In this document: positions 25,022-45,672 of the stretch, one piece after another
Position numbering within the stretch: the stretch's first letter is position 1
Layout of the letters: each line of letters starts with the position of its first letter
From: an uncultured Clostridia bacterium
GTDB taxonomy: Bacteria; Bacillota; Clostridia; Christensenellales; Borkfalkiaceae
Direction of reading: 5' to 3'
Assembly: GCA_947627065.1 (NCBI GenBank)
Contig: CANQUN010000001.1
Location: 1 to 64,000, forward strand
DNA: 64,000 bases
Program-made: the position numbers and the translations under genes
Notes under the pieces: model-generated
What the model was told of the DNA's origin: nothing
The model's input: the letters and a program-made list of their open reading frames with translations, nothing else
The model's database searches: none

Positions 25022-25058
25022 CAAAAGCCGCCTTTTTCACACGGGAATCGGTTTTTTT
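25022..25058 (+). repeat. Dispersed palindromic element, degenerate copy
   Basis: CAAAAGCCGCCTTTTTCACAC followed by GGGAATCGGTTTTTTT. It keeps the outer arms and spacing of the family but not the CACAAAAACG core. It abuts the 3' end of the chloride transporter gene. Confidence 0.35.
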
Positions 25059-26904
25059 ACCCTTGCCCGCCGTCCTTGCCGTCGGGCTTTTCACCGCCCG
25101 TATCCGTCGGTTTTTCACCGCTTGCGGGAGGTTCTTTGGCGAGGTGCGCCGTATCATCTGTTGCCGTTTTCCCTTCACCGTCCACAACCTGCACGGCGGC
25201 GGAGGGGAGGGCGTGAACCCCGTTCTTGGCGTCGGCAAGGGCTTCGGCCGCCTCGGCGTCGCCGAAAAATTCGGCGTAACCCGGCCGCTTGACTATGTAC
25301 GCCAGCTGGCGGTAGGTGTCCGCCGCGTCGTACGTTTCGGCTTGTATAACAAACTTGTCGCCCGCGTGAATCTTGCGTTCGCCGTCCTTGTCCATGCGGT
25401 AGATTATGTTGCCGTCCGCGTCCGTCTTTTTAACCTTAATCACAAGGGTGTTGGCGGGCCAGAGTATGTCCCTCACGCTCCTGTCCACGGCAAAAGACCC
25501 CGCTTCAATCTCCACTTCGTACTCCACGAGTTTGCGCTTTTTGCCCGCCATACGCTTGCCTACGAGGGCGCCGAGCGAGTTGTCGTATATCGGTTCTATG
25601 TTGAACAGTTCTATTATGAAGTACGACAGAAGTATCACGAGGCAGGCCGCCCACAGGTTTTCGGCAAGTCTGCCCGTCATTTCCACAACCAGCACTATGG
25701 CGGTTATTGGCGAGCGCATAACGCCCCCGAGAAAGGCGCACATGCTTATTATTACAATCATGTTCTCGCAGGAAGCGTCCATGCCCATCAGCGTCATCAG
25801 TTTGGCAATCAGCCCGCCGAACAGCGCGCCCGTGGAGAGAATGGGGATGAACAGGCCGCCCGTAACCCCGCCCGCAGACGAAAAGACGATGAGCACCAGC
25901 CTTACCGCAAGCAGCAGAAGGAGCGTCTTCCACCCGTAAGACGCGCTTGCAATCTTGTTTATAACAAGCGCGCCGCCGCCCGTGGCGTCCGCTATCAAAA
26001 GCCCCGCGATTCCCGTCAGCAAAAACACGGCGAGAATCTTGAAAAAGCCGTTTATCTTAAGCCTGCGCACGGCGTTTGTGGCAAAGTTCAAGGTGATGCT
26101 GAACAGCACCGAAAACGCGCCCATCATAAGCCCCAAGAGGAGAAGGTAACCTATCTGTCTCAGGTTTGGCTCGGCCGCCGAGGCGAAAGCCGCAGAGAAT
26201 ATCTCCGTCTGAATGCCGTGCCCCGTCCACGCGGTCAGCCCGTTTGCCGTGAGCGTTGCCACTATTACCGAGGCGGAGGCGGGCAGCAGTATCATGGGAG
26301 AAAACCGCTTGTGCCCTTCTTCCAAGGCGAATATTATGCCCGCGAGCGGGGCGTTGAACGCCACCGCAAAGCCCGCGGCTGCGCCGCCCGTAACCGACTG
26401 TCTCCGCCACGCATAGCGGGATTTGTTCTGTTTTCCGCCCACGGCGTTCACCCCGCCGCCTATGCACGAACCGATGAGAACGCTGGGTCCTTCGCTGCCG
26501 AGCGGCAGCCCCGAAATGAAGGAGATCATGCTGCCGAAAGTCATGGAAACCAGCGTTTTAAGCCACTTTAAGGGCAGCAGACCCCGCATGACCCCTTCCG
26601 AATAAGGCACGCCGCTGCCCGACACTTCGGGCGTGAATCTGGCGTTGAGGTACGAGAGACCCGCCATGGCCGCCAGCCCCGCAAACAGCAAGGGGAGGAA
26701 GGCCGGGTGCTCCGCCGTGTACGCGTAAATCTCGCGGCTCTTTTCGCCGAGGAATTCCACCGCCAGCGAATACGCCCAGATGAACGCGCCCGTGATGAGG
26801 CCGATGGCGGTTCCGTACACCACTATCGGCACCAGCGTGTGCTTGAAGTAGGAGTTGAAACTGTCAATGTTTCTGTTAAGTTTGTCGTTTATCCCGCTTT
26901 TCAT
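25057..26904 (-). CDS. CLC-family chloride channel or H+/Cl- exchanger with RCK_C domain
   Basis: 615 aa. The membrane domain at about residues 20-430 has the three anion-selectivity motifs: GSGVPYSEGV, GLPLGSEGPSV and GGVTGGLFIP. The gating glutamate in GSEGP is present (the usual Arg of GREGP is Ser). ALEEGHKRF carries the glutamate pair linked to proton coupling, which favours an exchanger. A TrkA/RCK_C-like cytoplasmic domain at about 470-545 and a Pro/Glu/Gly-rich tail follow. No partner gene adjacent; 214 nt separate it from its upstream neighbour. Confidence 0.9.
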   Translation of the reverse strand: MKSGINDKLNRNIDSFNSYFKHTLVPIVVYGTAIGLITGAFIWAYSLAVEFLGEKSREIYAYTAEHPAFLPLLFAGLAAMAGLSYLNARFTPEVSGSGVPYSEGVMRGLLPLKWLKTLVSMTFGSMISFISGLPLGSEGPSVLIGSCIGGGVNAVGGKQNKSRYAWRRQSVTGGAAAGFAVAFNAPLAGIIFALEEGHKRFSPMILLPASASVIVATLTANGLTAWTGHGIQTEIFSAAFASAAEPNLRQIGYLLLLGLMMGAFSVLFSITLNFATNAVRRLKINGFFKILAVFLLTGIAGLLIADATGGGALVINKIASASYGWKTLLLLLAVRLVLIVFSSAGGVTGGLFIPILSTGALFGGLIAKLMTLMGMDASCENMIVIISMCAFLGGVMRSPITAIVLVVEMTGRLAENLWAACLVILLSYFIIELFNIEPIYDNSLGALVGKRMAGKKRKLVEYEVEIEAGSFAVDRSVRDILWPANTLVIKVKKTDADGNIIYRMDKDGERKIHAGDKFVIQAETYDAADTYRQLAYIVKRPGYAEFFGDAEAAEALADAKNGVHALPSAAVQVVDGEGKTATDDTAHLAKEPPASGEKPTDTGGEKPDGKDGGQG

Positions 26905-27118: not shown

Positions 27119-27856
27119 TCATTGAATGAGATAAAAAATTCCGTACAGCATCACGATGTGCAGAGGGTAGAATACGTAAAAGAAATACTTCATGGGATAC
27201 CTGCCCCGTTCGCCGTTGTACAGCGCGAGCAGCGCGACCGACACGAGCGAGAACCATTCGAGGTGGATTTCGGGATATCCGCCTTCCTGAAGCAGGCAGG
27301 ATAAGGCCAGCAGCGCAGCGAACGGCAGCAGCCGCAAAAAGCGGTGCTTTTTGAAAATGTACGCCGAAAGGGGCAGCAGCACGCCCGTTATTCCGTATTC
27401 GAGCAAACCGCCGTTGCGCTCGGCAAACATGTCGAGAGCGACGGCCGAAACAACCACCGCAACAAGCAGTAAAATGTGCGAAAAACGGGACTTCTTGTCC
27501 CCGACAATGCCGTCGTAAGCGTAAATCGCAAGCACGCCGAGTGAGAACGTCGTGAATATGCTCAGCTGCACGGTGTTGTCCATCACCACGTACATGACGG
27601 AGGTGCAGATTACTCCGAGGAGAAACAGGTTTGCAAAGTAACGCCTGCGGTCGGAAGTGTAACGGCACCCTTCGGCAATCATAAAGGCGAACACGGGCAT
27701 GGACACCCGCCCGATGGCGCGCAGAACGAGGAAGGACGTTCTGTTCATCATCGGCTCAAAGATAAGCCCCGCGTGGTCTATAATCATCAGCGCGGCGGCT
27801 ATCAGTTTGAGGGCGGTTCCGCTCAGCCCGAATTTAGTTGCTCTTACACCATTCAT
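27119..27856 (-). CDS. TraX-like membrane protein
   Basis: 245 aa with about eight hydrophobic segments. The LKLIAAALMIIDHAGLIF start and the IGRVSMPVFAFMIAEGCRYTSDRRRY segment match the TraX family, whose founder acetylates F-pilin; chromosomal Clostridia copies have no known substrate. The C-terminal FFYVFYPLHIVMLYGIFY is family-typical. The start is the ATG at 27856 with a weak purine-rich site. Confidence 0.82.
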   Translation of the reverse strand: MNGVRATKFGLSGTALKLIAAALMIIDHAGLIFEPMMNRTSFLVLRAIGRVSMPVFAFMIAEGCRYTSDRRRYFANLFLLGVICTSVMYVVMDNTVQLSIFTTFSLGVLAIYAYDGIVGDKKSRFSHILLLVAVVVSAVALDMFAERNGGLLEYGITGVLLPLSAYIFKKHRFLRLLPFAALLALSCLLQEGGYPEIHLEWFSLVSVALLALYNGERGRYPMKYFFYVFYPLHIVMLYGIFYLIQ

Positions 27857-28123: not shown

Positions 28124-28714
28124 TTATTTTTTCTTTCCTTTCTTCTTCATCAAAAACCACAGCACGGTAAGCACCTGCAGGGGGATTCCCACCATGAAGA
28201 TCAGCCAGATATCCGTTTCGGCAAAGGTAAGCCGCACGCAGAGGGCGAGCGTCCATATCAGCACCGAAACGAGCACGGCGGTAATGGGGCGCATGCCCCA
28301 GATTGCGTTGAACACTATGGCGACAATTGCCGAAACGGGCAGCGCGTATATGAACGCCAGCCACAGTTCGCCCTTGACGCCCGCCCAGCGCAGCAGAACG
28401 TACAGCACGGTTGCAATCAGCCACACCAGCCCCACCGACAGCAGGGATATTATGGTGCGGTTGCGCACGTTTACGCCGCGTTCCCGCTTTGGGGGCGCGG
28501 GCGGCTCGGCGCTTATCAGCTCGTCTATCGTTATCCCGAACATTTCCGCAAGTTCGTGCAGAATATACACGTCGGGCACGGCCTCTCCGCGTTCCCACTT
28601 GGAGACCGCCTTGTCCGAATAGTTGAGCTTTTCCGCCAGCTGCAATTGCGTGAGATTCAGTTTTTTACGGTGCGCGGCGATATTTTTGGCCACGTTGCTC
28701 TTCAATTCTTCCAT
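28124..28714 (-). CDS. XRE-family regulator with membrane domain
   Basis: 196 aa. N-terminal helix-turn-helix (residues about 8-62: KLNLTQLQLAEKLNYSDKAV, SKWERGEAVPDV) followed by four membrane segments (about 85-190) and a Lys tail. This architecture suggests a membrane-tethered transcription regulator. The start is the ATG at 28714; a -10 box ends exactly 6 nt upstream and there is no Shine-Dalgarno, so the mRNA is predicted to be leaderless. Divergent from the SGNH hydrolase across the 21-bp array. Confidence 0.85.
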   Translation of the reverse strand: MEELKSNVAKNIAAHRKKLNLTQLQLAEKLNYSDKAVSKWERGEAVPDVYILHELAEMFGITIDELISAEPPAPPKRERGVNVRNRTIISLLSVGLVWLIATVLYVLLRWAGVKGELWLAFIYALPVSAIVAIVFNAIWGMRPITAVLVSVLIWTLALCVRLTFAETDIWLIFMVGIPLQVLTVLWFLMKKKGKKK

Positions 28715-28749: not shown

Positions 28750-28774
28750 GCGATTTACGGGGGTTCTACCGTGG

Positions 28775-28883
28775 GTAGAGTTGAGTTTTAACGCGGTAGA
28801 GCGGCTTTTTTTGTCCGTAGAGGGCGAAAATCCTATCGTAGAGACCCAAACCCGTATCGTAGAGGCCGCACACCCGAAAGTAG
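28775..28883 (+). repeat. Phased array of GTAGAG boxes, 21-bp period
   Basis: GTAGAG begins at 28775, 28796, 28817, 28838 and 28859, with a sixth partial copy (GTAG) at 28880; every step is exactly 21 bp. The intervening 15 bp differ between units. The first box is also half of a TCTACC-GTG-GGTAGA inverted repeat. Spacing equals two helical turns, so all boxes face the same side of the DNA, and the last abuts a -35 box. Likely tandem binding sites for an activator. Confidence 0.75.
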
Positions 28884-28884
28884 G

Positions 28885-28913
28885 TTGATTTTTCCGCCCC
28901 GCGCGTGTATATT
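28885..28913 (+). promoter_or_regulatory. Promoter of the SGNH hydrolase gene
   Basis: TTGATT at 28885-28890 and TATATT at 28908-28913, 17-bp spacing, immediately downstream of the GTAGAG array. Confidence 0.6.
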
Positions 28914-28943: not shown

Positions 28944-29663
28944 ATGCAAGGCAAGATAGCGGTGTTCGGCGACTCAATACCCAAGGGTATAGTTACGGAC
29001 GGAGAAAAATACGAAAAACTCGACGCAGGCGTCGTGAACATAATAGAATCGGAATACGGCTACGAGATAGAAAACTATTCGCAATACGGCCAGACCCTGT
29101 CGCGCCTTGACGCAAAGGGCACCATGGAACGCTTCGGCCGCGGCGTGGACCCCGCGCTTGACAATTACGCCGTCATAAGCATAGGCGGCAACGACGCCGA
29201 CTACGATTGGAAGGAAGTCGCTTCTTCTCCCCGTGCCGAACACAAGCCCAAGACCCCCGTGGACGTGTTTGAAAAACTGCTCGGCAAAAACGTGGAGATG
29301 CTGAAAGCGCACGGCGTAAGGGTGATACTCACCACCATTCCGCCCGTGGACGCGGGGCGTTACTTTTCCAACGTAATCTCCAAAACCTGCGACGGCAGCC
29401 GCGTGCTCGAATTTTTCGAAGGGGACATTACCAACGTCTACCGCGGGCAGGAAGTTTACAATTACGTCATTCTCAAGGCGGCGGGCAGGTTCGGCTGTCC
29501 CGTGATAGACCTGCGCACGGGCTTTCTGCTCGACCGCAACTACCTTGACAACTATTGTCAGGACGGCATTCATCCAAACGCGGGCGGCCACAGGTTCATG
29601 GCCGAAGAAGTGGTAAAATCCCTCGCCTCTCAGGGCGTGATTCTCAAAAAGCAGACCAACTGA
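28944..29663 (+). CDS. SGNH/GDSL-family hydrolase
   Basis: 239 aa. Block I nucleophile in VFGDSIPKG, block III GGND in ISIGGNDADY, and block V DGIHPN with the catalytic Asp-His pair. No signal peptide, so it is cytoplasmic. The start is the ATG at 28944 with GGAGGAGA at 28930-28937; an upstream in-frame TTG-type extension is rejected. Substrate (ester, thioester or sugar acetyl) unknown. Expression is presumably controlled by the upstream 21-bp array. Confidence 0.87.
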   Translation: MQGKIAVFGDSIPKGIVTDGEKYEKLDAGVVNIIESEYGYEIENYSQYGQTLSRLDAKGTMERFGRGVDPALDNYAVISIGGNDADYDWKEVASSPRAEHKPKTPVDVFEKLLGKNVEMLKAHGVRVILTTIPPVDAGRYFSNVISKTCDGSRVLEFFEGDITNVYRGQEVYNYVILKAAGRFGCPVIDLRTGFLLDRNYLDNYCQDGIHPNAGGHRFMAEEVVKSLASQGVILKKQTN

Positions 29664-29839: not shown

Positions 29840-30700
29840 ATGGACGACATTATAATTTCGGTCGAATCTACCTGCGACCTGCCCGAGGAGATTTCTTCTC
29901 CCCTCGGCATAAGGATAATAAACATGGAATACAGCGTGGACGGCGAACGCCACCTCATGGGCGACGGCGCCTACACCATGCACGAATTTTACGACAAGAT
30001 GAGGGCGGGCGCGGTTACCAAGACGGCGCAGGTCAACGAGTACGACGCCGAGGCGCACCTCGAATCTCTTCTCAAAGAGGGGAAGGACGTAATTCACCTT
30101 GCCTTTTCAAGTTCGCTCTCGGGCACGGCGGGCAGTTTTATCACCGCCGCCGAAAATCTTAAACCCAAGTATCCCGATAGAAAACTTGCCGTTGTGGACA
30201 CGCTGTGCGCGTGCGGCGGGCAGGGTTTTCTGGCGGTTGCCGTGGCCGAATATTCCAAGACGCACGGGTTTGACGAAACCGTCGCTTATGCCGAAGCGCT
30301 CAAGCACAGGATAGTCCATTACTTCGTGGTGGACGATCTCAAGTACCTTGCCCGCGGCGGCCGCATTTCCAAGGCGACGGCGCTGCTCGGCAACGCCATT
30401 CACATGAAACCCGTAATGCACATGGACAAGGAGGGCAAACTCGTGCCTTACAGAAAGGTGCTTTCGAGAAAGAAGTCCGTGCTTGCCCTTGCCGACTACA
30501 CGGCCGACAAGTTCGACAGGAGCATCGAGAGGATATACATCGCCCACGCCGACTGTCCCGAAGAGGCCGACCTTCTGTCCCGCCACGTCGAAAAGGCAAC
30601 GGGGATAAAGCCCGTGGTTTTCGACCTCGGCATGGTGATAGGCAGCCATTCGGGACCGGGCACGCTCAGCGTTTATTTTACCGCCGAAGCGAGAGAATAA
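29840..30700 (+). CDS. DegV-family fatty-acid-binding protein, copy 1
   Basis: 286 aa. DegV/FakB proteins hold a fatty acid for phosphorylation by the kinase FakA. ISVESTCDLPEE at the start, IHLAFSSSLSGTAGSF around the lipid-binding site, DTLCACGGQGFLAV, and the GMVIGSHSGPGTLSVYF end are family motifs. The start is the ATG at 29840 after CAGGAG. Nine nt separate it from a paralogue. No fakA gene is in the window. Confidence 0.93.
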   Translation: MDDIIISVESTCDLPEEISSPLGIRIINMEYSVDGERHLMGDGAYTMHEFYDKMRAGAVTKTAQVNEYDAEAHLESLLKEGKDVIHLAFSSSLSGTAGSFITAAENLKPKYPDRKLAVVDTLCACGGQGFLAVAVAEYSKTHGFDETVAYAEALKHRIVHYFVVDDLKYLARGGRISKATALLGNAIHMKPVMHMDKEGKLVPYRKVLSRKKSVLALADYTADKFDRSIERIYIAHADCPEEADLLSRHVEKATGIKPVVFDLGMVIGSHSGPGTLSVYFTAEARE

Positions 30701-30709
30701 TATGGAGGA

Positions 30710-31573
30710 ATGATGAACATTGTTATTTCTGCCGAGGCGACCTGCGACCTCGACGCCGCAACGGCAAAAAAATACGGCATAAGCGTTGCCCCCATGAGTT
30801 ATTGCGTGGGCAACGACTGTTACGACACGGTTACGGGGCTTGCCCCTTCCGAATGTTACAAACGGATGCGTGCGGGCGCGCTGACTTCCACCGCCCTCAT
30901 CAACGAGACCAACGCCGCCGAATATTTTGAAAACCTGCTTAAACAGGGTGCGGACGTCGTGCATCTCGGCTTTTCATCCACGCTGTCGGGCACCTACCTC
31001 AACATGGCGGCTGCCGCCGAGTCGCTTCGGAAAAAGTACCCCTCGCAAAAACTCGCGGTCATAGACACCGCGTGCGGAAGTTTCGGGCAGGGGCTTCTCG
31101 CAATCATGGCGGCGGAACTTGCCGCAAGGGGCGCAACTTTTGAAGAAGTGGCCTTTTTCGCAGAAAATCACAGGATGGACATCTGCCATTTCTTCATCGC
31201 AGAGGATCTCACTTACCTTTCCCGCAGCGGCAGAATCCCCAAGATACTCGCCGCCATCGGTAACGCCATCCGCATAAAGCCGCTGATGTTTCTGGATAAA
31301 GACGGGCGGTTTTCGGTGGCAAAAAAGGTGCTTACCCGCAAGAAATCGGTGTACGAACTTGCCGATTCCGTAATCGAAAATTATTCGGGAGAGCACGGCC
31401 TCATAATCGTCGGCCACGCCGACTGCCTTGAAGAAGCGCAGGAGACGGCCGACAGGATAGAACGCGGCCTGCACGTCAAGCCCGTGATCATGGAATTCGG
31501 CATGATGATAGGCGGCCACTGCGGCCCGGGCACGGTCGGCGCGTTCTACACGGGCAAAAAACGCGGCAAATAA
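30710..31573 (+). CDS. DegV-family fatty-acid-binding protein, copy 2
   Basis: 287 aa, tandem paralogue of the preceding gene, with VVHLGFSSTLSGTYLN, DTACGSFGQGLLAI and MMIGGHCGPGTVGAF. Two adjacent ATGs occur; GGAGGA ends at 30709, so the second ATG at 30713 may be the true start because it has better spacing. FakB paralogues in other Firmicutes prefer different fatty acids; that could hold here but is inference. Confidence 0.93.
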   Translation: MMNIVISAEATCDLDAATAKKYGISVAPMSYCVGNDCYDTVTGLAPSECYKRMRAGALTSTALINETNAAEYFENLLKQGADVVHLGFSSTLSGTYLNMAAAAESLRKKYPSQKLAVIDTACGSFGQGLLAIMAAELAARGATFEEVAFFAENHRMDICHFFIAEDLTYLSRSGRIPKILAAIGNAIRIKPLMFLDKDGRFSVAKKVLTRKKSVYELADSVIENYSGEHGLIIVGHADCLEEAQETADRIERGLHVKPVIMEFGMMIGGHCGPGTVGAFYTGKKRGK

Positions 31574-43113: not shown

Positions 43114-45672
43114 TTATTCCGCCCAAACTTCGGGTTCATTGGTGTCGGGGTTATAATGCCAATGTTGTCCATCGTAGATTGGATCATCGGAATAATAATA
43201 GCGTTTGGCGTTTTTGAGGTAGTCGTTATCATCGCCTATTGAAATACTGTTCCATTCAGCCTCATTTGCGCCTTTGTAGTAGACCGTTTGAAGTCCGTAG
43301 CAACTACGGAACGCCCAATCTTCTATACTCGCAACACCGGAGCCTATTACCACACTCGTCAGCCAGCGGCCACCAGAGAACGCACCAATTCCTATACTCG
43401 TAACACTGTCAGGTATTTTCAGGTCTCCTGTCAATCCGTCGCAATTATAGAAAGCATTATTTCCTATACTCGTAACAGTGTTCGGAATAGTTACTTTTGT
43501 TATACTTGTGCAACCACAAAAGGCACAATCTTTTATCTTGTTTATAGTTTCGGGTATATCTGCTTCAGTCAGCAACTCATCTCCTATATATAATTCATGA
43601 GCACAAGATAACGGATTTGACCAATAATCTGCAAACTCTATCTTGCACCAGTCTTCGAGAGTACCCATGTATTTAACGCTCGTCAGTCCGCTGCAAAGCT
43701 CGAACGCACCACCTCCTATACTCGTAACGCCGTCGGGGATCTTTAATTCTCCTGTCAGGCTACTATTATAGAATGCCATATATCCTATATTTTCTATATT
43801 TTTACCGATTATTACATAAGTAATATTTTCGTTGTCTCTAAATGCATTTTCGCCTATTTCTTTTACCGGTAAATTTGAATATGTAGCAGGAATAACAATT
43901 CCTTTGTCCGTGCCATTATAGCCTGTTACCACATAATATGAGCCATCGCTTTCGGAATTTTTCAACTCAAAGGTTAACCCTGACGTATAGAAGTCATCTT
44001 CGACTTCCCGGTACATCCATACTGTGGGTTTATCGTTATCATAGTGCCAATGTTCACCATCGTAATTTGGAGTATCGGAATAATAGAAACGAGTGGTGTT
44101 TTTGAGTTCGTCGTTTTCAATGCCTATTGAAATACTGTTCCATTCAGCCTCATTTGCGCCTTTGTAGTAGACCGTTTGAAGTCCGTAGCAACTACCGAAC
44201 GCCCAATCTTCTATACTCGCAACACCGGAGCCTATTACCACACTCGTCAGCCAGCGGCCACCAGAGAACGCACCAATTCCTATACTCGTAACACTGTCAG
44301 GTATTTTCAGGTCTCCTGTCAATCCGTCGCAATTATAGAAAGCATTATTTCCTATACTCGTAACAGTGTTCGGAATAGTTACTTTTGTTATACTTGTGCA
44401 ACCACAAAAGGCACAATCTTTTATCTTGTTTATAGTTTCGGGTATATCTGCTTCAGTCAGCAACTCATCTCCTATATATAATTCATGAGCACAAGATAAC
44501 GGATTTGACCAATAATCTGCAAACTCTATCTTGCACCAGTCTTCGAGAGTACCCATGTATTTAACGCTCGTCAGTCCGCTGCAAAGCTCGAACGCACCAC
44601 CTCCTATACTCGTAACGCCGTCAGGTATCTTTAATTCTCCCGTCAAGCCGCTACAATCCATGAACGCAGCACCTCCTATGCTCGTAACACTGTCGGGTAT
44701 CTTTAATTCTCCCGTAAGACCGCTGCAACCATAGAACGCATAACTTTCTATACTCGTAATGCTGTCGGGGATCTCTAATCCTCCTGTCAGGTTGATGCAA
44801 CCATAGAACGCATAACTTCCTATACTCGTAACAGTGCTCGGAATAGTTACCTTCGTTATACTTGTGTAACCATAAAAGGCATAATCTTTTATCTCTGTTA
44901 TAGTTTTAGGTATATCGGCTTCAGCCAGCAACTCTTCTCCTATATATAATTCATGAGCATAATATAACGGATTTGAAGTAGAACTTGCAAAATCTATCTT
45001 GCACCAACCCTCAAGAGTGCCCATATATTTAATGCTCGTCAGACCTTTGCAATCAGAGAACGCCCAATCTTCTATACTCGTAACACCGTCGCCTATCACT
45101 ACACTCGTAGGACCGCTACAACCATAGAACGCAGAATTTCCAATACTCGTAACACTGTCGGGTATCTTTAATTCTCCTGTTAAACCAATGCAACCAGAGA
45201 ACGCATACTCTCCTATACTCGTAACGTTTGCGCCAATGGTGATGTGAGTAATATTGTTATTTTGAGAAAACGCCCTATATCCGATTTCCTTGACTGGTTT
45301 ACCGAGATAAATGTTGGGGATTACAACCTCTTGCGAATCACCGTTGTAGCCAGTAACGGCGTAATATTCGTCCCCGTCGTCGTCCGTGCGCAATTCAAAC
45401 GTCAAACCTTCGGTGTAATAATCGTCGGGATATTCTTCACCGGGAGTGGTCTGCCCGCCCGATGAATCGCCACCGGGCATAGTCTGTCCGCCCGATGAAT
45501 CGCCACCGGGCATAGTCTGTCCGCCCGATGAACCGCCCGTGGACTGTTCGGATTGACTGTTTCCACCCAACGAACCGTTGTTTTCCCACTGAAACCCGCC
45601 GCAGGATGTGAGCAGGGCAAGACAAGAAACCAGCAAAACGGCGGAGAGGAACAGAAAAATTGCTTTTTTCAT
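43114..45672 (-). CDS. BspA-like leucine-rich-repeat lipoprotein with internal duplication
   Basis: 852 aa. Lipobox LTSCGG near residue 20, then a linker with three near-identical GGDSSGGQTMP units, then two modules each consisting of a YTEGLTFEL-type strand domain and LRR_5 repeats (LKIPDSVTSIG, AFYGCSGLTG). Module ends are nearly identical because 43234-43734 and 44122-44622 are duplicated. The start is the ATG at 45672 after GGAGGT. More AT-rich than its neighbours. Probably a surface adhesin. A TTTACT/TATACT promoter and a long leader lie upstream. Confidence 0.88.
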   Translation of the reverse strand: MKKAIFLFLSAVLLVSCLALLTSCGGFQWENNGSLGGNSQSEQSTGGSSGGQTMPGGDSSGGQTMPGGDSSGGQTTPGEEYPDDYYTEGLTFELRTDDDGDEYYAVTGYNGDSQEVVIPNIYLGKPVKEIGYRAFSQNNNITHITIGANVTSIGEYAFSGCIGLTGELKIPDSVTSIGNSAFYGCSGPTSVVIGDGVTSIEDWAFSDCKGLTSIKYMGTLEGWCKIDFASSTSNPLYYAHELYIGEELLAEADIPKTITEIKDYAFYGYTSITKVTIPSTVTSIGSYAFYGCINLTGGLEIPDSITSIESYAFYGCSGLTGELKIPDSVTSIGGAAFMDCSGLTGELKIPDGVTSIGGGAFELCSGLTSVKYMGTLEDWCKIEFADYWSNPLSCAHELYIGDELLTEADIPETINKIKDCAFCGCTSITKVTIPNTVTSIGNNAFYNCDGLTGDLKIPDSVTSIGIGAFSGGRWLTSVVIGSGVASIEDWAFGSCYGLQTVYYKGANEAEWNSISIGIENDELKNTTRFYYSDTPNYDGEHWHYDNDKPTVWMYREVEDDFYTSGLTFELKNSESDGSYYVVTGYNGTDKGIVIPATYSNLPVKEIGENAFRDNENITYVIIGKNIENIGYMAFYNSSLTGELKIPDGVTSIGGGAFELCSGLTSVKYMGTLEDWCKIEFADYWSNPLSCAHELYIGDELLTEADIPETINKIKDCAFCGCTSITKVTIPNTVTSIGNNAFYNCDGLTGDLKIPDSVTSIGIGAFSGGRWLTSVVIGSGVASIEDWAFRSCYGLQTVYYKGANEAEWNSISIGDDNDYLKNAKRYYYSDDPIYDGQHWHYNPDTNEPEVWAE
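43234..43734 (-). repeat. Internal duplication, copy A
   Basis: 501 bp matching 44122-44622 with one substitution that I can see (about 43309 against 44197), offset 888 bp. It encodes the LRR stretch from about GAFELCSGLTSVKYMG to the WNSIS segment. Confidence 0.9.
44122..44622 (-). repeat. Internal duplication, copy B
   Basis: Partner of 43234-43734. Divergence rises sharply outside both ends, so the match reflects recent duplication or gene conversion and not just LRR similarity. Confidence 0.9.

Follow-up and report, generated by a model that had tools for sequence, protein, structure and literature searches.

A GTAGAG box array on a 21-bp lattice as the probable operator of a membrane XRE regulator of lipid-related genes in Clostridia

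The array of GTAGAG boxes analysed here is, in our judgement, quite probably the operator of the adjacent membrane XRE regulator, through which genes for fatty-acid scavenging and membrane lipids would be controlled. It lies in a 64,000-nucleotide stretch of DNA from an uncultured Clostridia bacterium (contig CANQUN010000001.1, positions 1 to 64,000), referred to below as the window, between the XRE gene (28124-28714, minus strand) and an SGNH/GDSL hydrolase gene (28944-29663, plus strand), the first gene of a divergent operon. Comparison across genomes shows that the operator exists, that it is conserved and built on a lattice, that it goes with this family of XRE proteins and that it recurs, away from XRE genes, in front of lipid-related genes. 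Most likely, it represents a single case of a widely distributed operator that belongs to a family of membrane XRE proteins tied to lipid genes.

Five perfect GTAGAG boxes are found on the plus strand at 28775-28780, 28796-28801, 28817-28822, 28838-28843 and 28859-28864, a spacing of 28775 + 21k, and a sixth, imperfect box, GTAGG(T), at 28880-28884, immediately before the -35 element that begins at 28885. These positions and the 21-bp period had been given in the initial annotation and are confirmed. That reading overlooked an inverted half-site, TCTAC at 28765-28769, which makes box 1 the right arm of a palindrome, TCTAC-CGTGG-GTAGA (28765-28779, assigned to no strand). This core palindrome would anchor the operator; TCTAC-N5-GTAGA has its sole copy in the 1.95-Mb genome here, and on its lattice boxes 1 to 5 lie at +10, +31, +52, +73 and +94. 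GTAGAG alone, among the hexamers of the 64-kb window, occurs at least four times with one constant spacing in the range 8-60 bp. When up to two mismatches are allowed, GTAGAG-N15-GTAGAG yields 12 matches against 1.7 expected, a number reached in none of 100 shuffles; the array is non-random and real. The genome-wide search for the exact pair, proposed in the initial annotation, returned one further match outside the array, an isolated pair on contig C12. The spacers between the boxes are unrelated, as had been claimed, with a mean pairwise identity of 24% within the array, those of units 3-5 being somewhat similar (40-60% identity). The window also contains two stronger tandem arrays, at 44569-44832 (72-bp units) and 45438-45537 (33-bp units).

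Close relatives carry the array as well. In three congeners (G003, G004 and G005) it adjoins the orthologous XRE gene (61-69% identity), and between these and the genome of the window (G000) the orthologous boxes are 100% identical, compared with about 29% identity for the spacers. Box steps in the four congeneric genomes measure 21 bp, with single exceptions of 20 and 22 bp. Period and boxes are thus conserved and the spacers are not, which bears out the earlier proposal of a regulatory element in cis whose boxes recur every two helical turns. Of the two findings named in the initial annotation as refuting it, absence of the array from close relatives and spacers as conserved as the boxes, neither is seen. 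The divergent operon has the order SGNH-DegV in G000, G003 and G004, with a second DegV gene in G000 and G003; in G005 it is DegV-HlyIII, HlyIII being the second gene behind the array.

The XRE protein combines an N-terminal HTH_3 domain (PF01381, E 7e-14, 52 bits against a cut-off of 23) with a C-terminal domain that has no Pfam name, in which four hydrophobic segments, predicted to be transmembrane (TM) helices, are separated by short loops. HTH_3 was matched in 21 of 21 aligned homologues. The AlphaFold2 model (mean pLDDT 86) shows five HTH helices and four long helices, and the protein is accordingly predicted to be a membrane one-component regulator with HTH and TM helices in one chain. 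Searches of the TM domain in Pfam, NCBIfam, PHROGs and by PDB fold matched the HTH only. So little of the protein would protrude from the bilayer that its signal likely arises inside the membrane. Beyond the XRE gene lie genes for a TraX-family membrane protein (27119-27856, minus strand) and a ClC-type chloride channel (25057-26904, minus strand).

To place the array in a wider context, 80 further loci with XRE homologues were gathered from Clostridia (Christensenellaceae, Oscillospiraceae, Gallimonas, Coproplasma and others). Upstream of the XRE gene, 65 of 102 non-duplicate loci have a perfect palindrome, eight have one with one mismatch and five one with two, and 24 have none. Since palindrome carriers are scattered throughout a tree of 103 XRE proteins, the palindrome operator is probably ancestral and was lost repeatedly. 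The divergent gene at the 65 palindrome loci encodes a DegV protein in 28 cases, an SGNH hydrolase in nine, an HlyIII protein in four, an AMP-binding ligase in three, a GT8 glycosyltransferase in two, and GT2, MscS and EamA proteins in one each; at the remaining 16, among them a clade with a putative small RNA, none of these families is divergent. Acyltransferase and GT4 genes are divergent at loci with one or two palindrome mismatches. DegV or SGNH neighbours occur at 37 of the 65 loci with the palindrome versus 0 of the 24 without it, and none of the divergent target families adjoins these 24. The boxes track the XRE gene across the clade, and the adjacent membrane XRE protein, named as a candidate in the initial annotation, is the likely reader of the array.

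The putative small RNA is faced by the operator, in place of a protein gene, in one well-supported clade of XRE loci (L040, L042, L100, L107, L110, L111, L112, L117, L123, L154 and L164). Its layout comprises a hairpin with the loop UCCCAG, a free ACUCUCC and a strong terminator. Seven of the ten predicted pairs have changed on both sides, and an Rfam search of the window and of this clade gave no match. Within the same genus, a paralogous membrane XRE gene faces a GT4 glycosyltransferase gene on contig C34 of G000 (locus L170, 1440-1700) and at loci L172 and L174. The operator of the C34 paralogue, TCTACTCTCGCGAGAG, has diverged and its boxes read GTAGAAT, which suggests that XRE paralogues use separate operator codes.

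Promoters are tightly coupled to the lattice. The target promoter in the window is TTGATT, 17 bp, TATATT (28885-28913, plus strand; -35 at 28885-28890, -10 at 28908-28913), and box 6 adjoins TTGATT, so that the array does abut the -35 of the hydrolase gene as originally noted and the promoter is locked to it. The XRE promoter, assigned from its sequence and from the same spacing in relatives, is TTGCTT (28749-28744), 17 bp, TATAAT (28726-28721) on the minus strand. Its -10 lies 6 bp from the ATG (28714) in the window, and about 37 of 65 relatives likewise have it 6-7 bp from the start codon; at so short a distance the XRE mRNA is probably leaderless. From the inferred XRE start site the palindrome is about 58 bp away, on the upstream side, a geometry from which autoregulation is not evident.

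When the 65 loci are aligned on the palindrome, forward boxes accumulate at +31 (12 loci within 1 bp), +52 (22), +73 (27) and +94 (5). About 40 loci have an inverted box at +30/31; the maximum at any offset in 500 shuffles was 3. The purely direct array of the window represents one form of a broader operator that has a leading palindrome and a second box in either orientation. Because relatives share the lattice with box 2 either way, the 21-bp lattice predates the all-direct array of this genus. The TTG of the divergent -35 is placed at +78 in 27 loci (within 1 bp), at +98/99 in eight and at +120 in two, the window included, and the offsets +78, +99 and +120 differ by whole lattice steps. A box directly precedes a TTG-type -35 in 28 of 50 promoters of relatives, against a background of 1.6%. 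The lattice is also present at 20 palindrome sites away from XRE genes.

Palindromes are rare, usually with one to three copies per genome (61 genomes), and many copies lie within genes and resemble chance occurrences. Intergenic palindromes away from XRE genes precede DegV genes in 13 cases, GT8 genes in four (three confirmed by Pfam) and HlyIII genes in three (confirmed by Pfam). In a test on 37 genomes, for which the positions were transferred manually and which included DegV genes and controls from shared contigs only, seven of 33 non-XRE palindromes fell within 166 bp upstream of a DegV gene (binomial p about 3e-15); reversed-pattern control sites in the same test gave 0 matches near DegV. 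HlyIII genes are scarce, with ten in the 37 genomes, and two tested genomes have the palindrome directly before one. None of the other three DegV promoters of G000 carries the palindrome, so the regulon in this genome may be a single operon.

Behind the hydrolase gene, this operon encodes a DegV family protein related to the fatty-acid-binding FakB1 (29840-30700, plus strand) and a second DegV family protein (30710-31573, plus strand), both recognised by profile matches. PF02645 and TIGR00762 exceed their cut-offs, and the FakB1 model scores 105 bits against an equivalog cut-off of 350, which assigns the protein to the DegV family and leaves it a mere candidate for FakB1 proper. Proteins of the DegV/FakB type present bound fatty acids to the FakA kinase, by which exogenous fatty acids enter phospholipids (PMC12288450, PMC9136124). 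A FakA kinase gene (PF13684 over cut-off) was found in 11 of 11 genomes, in G000 outside this operon. The Escherichia coli trhA gene, of the HlyIII family, is a member of the FabR unsaturated fatty-acid regulon (PMC9017321). As far as sequence can tell, the shared theme of the targets is membrane lipid supply, and these membrane lipid and fatty-acid functions replace the 'secretion-linked' control suggested previously. Against this reading, EamA, M24 peptidase, MscS and the putative small RNA are divergent genes without an obvious lipid role, and about a quarter of the XRE homologues (24 of 102) have no palindrome beside their own gene.

In the mechanism that we propose, an XRE dimer would occupy the palindrome TCTAC-N5-GTAGA, whose half-sites are one helical turn apart, and further XRE subunits would fill the GTAGA boxes every 21 bp up to the divergent -35. 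At these distances, one turn within the palindrome and two turns between the boxes that follow it, all boxes would lie on the same face of the helix. The regulator would probably monitor the membrane, either its state or its lipid content, and then tune fatty-acid scavenging and membrane lipid genes, here an operon of an SGNH acylhydrolase and two DegV/FakB-type proteins. What we infer is that the XRE protein binds and does so cooperatively, that its signal comes from the membrane, and whether control is positive or negative; such control may be 'switch-like', as the initial annotation suggested.

As to this sign, promoter phasing leads us to favour activation mildly over repression: the exact phase of the -35 with the lattice and a core promoter free of boxes would suit a contact with RNA polymerase. 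Nearly as plausible is that the same regulator is a repressor that coats the array and obstructs RNA polymerase through the box next to the -35 until fatty acids or membrane stress change the TM domain. XRE proteins are frequently repressors, and the last box is in direct contact with the -35. CoxC, a membrane regulator too, acts as a repressor at three two-turn direct repeats that overlap the -35 (PMC11347149). However, the array is confined to the region upstream and leaves both core promoter and start site free of boxes, and the -35 stands in the exact phase expected for polymerase contact; we consider repression a serious contender, at somewhat under an even chance. A different reader of the array, a LytTR or other response regulator to which the XRE gene would be a mere neighbour, appears very improbable. 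LytTR regulators do bind direct repeats with a comparable period (PMC11347149), and palindromes also occur away from XRE genes. Nevertheless, the LytTR profile (PF04397) found no match in G000 (about 91% complete) or in the array-bearing G003 (about 79%), and the palindrome stays with the XRE proteins throughout a deep tree in which the divergent gene changes (DegV, SGNH, glycosyltransferase, HlyIII, ligase). As far as these incomplete assemblies can show, the earlier suggestion of LytTR regulators is consequently not borne out.

Hardly any credence is left for the period as a remnant of duplicated tandem units or of a protein-coding stretch (seven codons, with LYxxxxx repeats on the minus strand). 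The period is a multiple of three and the spacers of units 3-5 are partly alike, but spacer identity is near chance within and between genomes, the 20- and 22-bp steps of the congeners break the reading frame, and distant relatives have the lattice with inverted boxes. Spacer identity and the 20- and 22-bp steps lead us to reject this origin, in agreement with the initial annotation, which had seen in the period more than a leftover of simple tandem duplication.

Taken together with the operator role of the array that we prefer, the data allow a broader speculation, offered tentatively and as rather less than probable. A Clostridia-wide family of membrane XRE proteins might sense the bilayer, assemble on the 21-bp lattice, draw the promoter to the membrane and contact RNA polymerase in phase, the array gaining or losing length in full 21-bp units and moving the promoter along. 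Fatty-acid scavenging and membrane lipids would come under a master circuit of this kind, which in one clade would act through an undescribed small RNA. For the question of how gut Clostridia may control the uptake of external fatty acids and their membrane composition, the system supplies a regulator, an operator code and a set of targets that can be put to the test. A promoter on a fixed lattice beside a membrane protein, with array length in whole periods, makes helical phasing and tethering directly testable.

In the open-access literature searched, neither the palindrome nor an XRE protein that regulates DegV/FakB genes was found to have been described before. The fusion of a DNA-binding domain to TM helices recalls regulators of the CadC/ToxR type and CoxC (MHYT-LytTR); the latter acts through direct repeats two turns apart by the -35, like the array described here (PMC11347149). 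In contrast to these regulators, an XRE/HTH_3 domain here stands N-terminal to a four-TM domain nameless in Pfam, and the operator consists of an anchor palindrome with up to five further boxes. SinR of Bacillus subtilis has an XRE-type HTH and short boxes in several copies and mixed orientation, its box, GTTCTYT, being bound most strongly as inverted repeats (PMC3163267). SinR differs in being soluble, in controlling biofilm genes and in lacking a 21-bp lattice, and the array consists of GTAGAG/CTCTAC rather than GTTCTYT, its left arm reading GTTCTAC. Control of fatty-acid and membrane genes, as proposed here, is the task of the FabT and FabR regulons. FabT is a MarR protein and FabR a TetR protein, both soluble, whereas the present regulator is a membrane XRE protein with DegV/FakB, SGNH, HlyIII and glycosyltransferase targets. 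At PRM, the HTH protein lambda CI adjoins the -35 in fixed phase, as the boxes do here; CI uses three operators with another spacing and is not a membrane protein.
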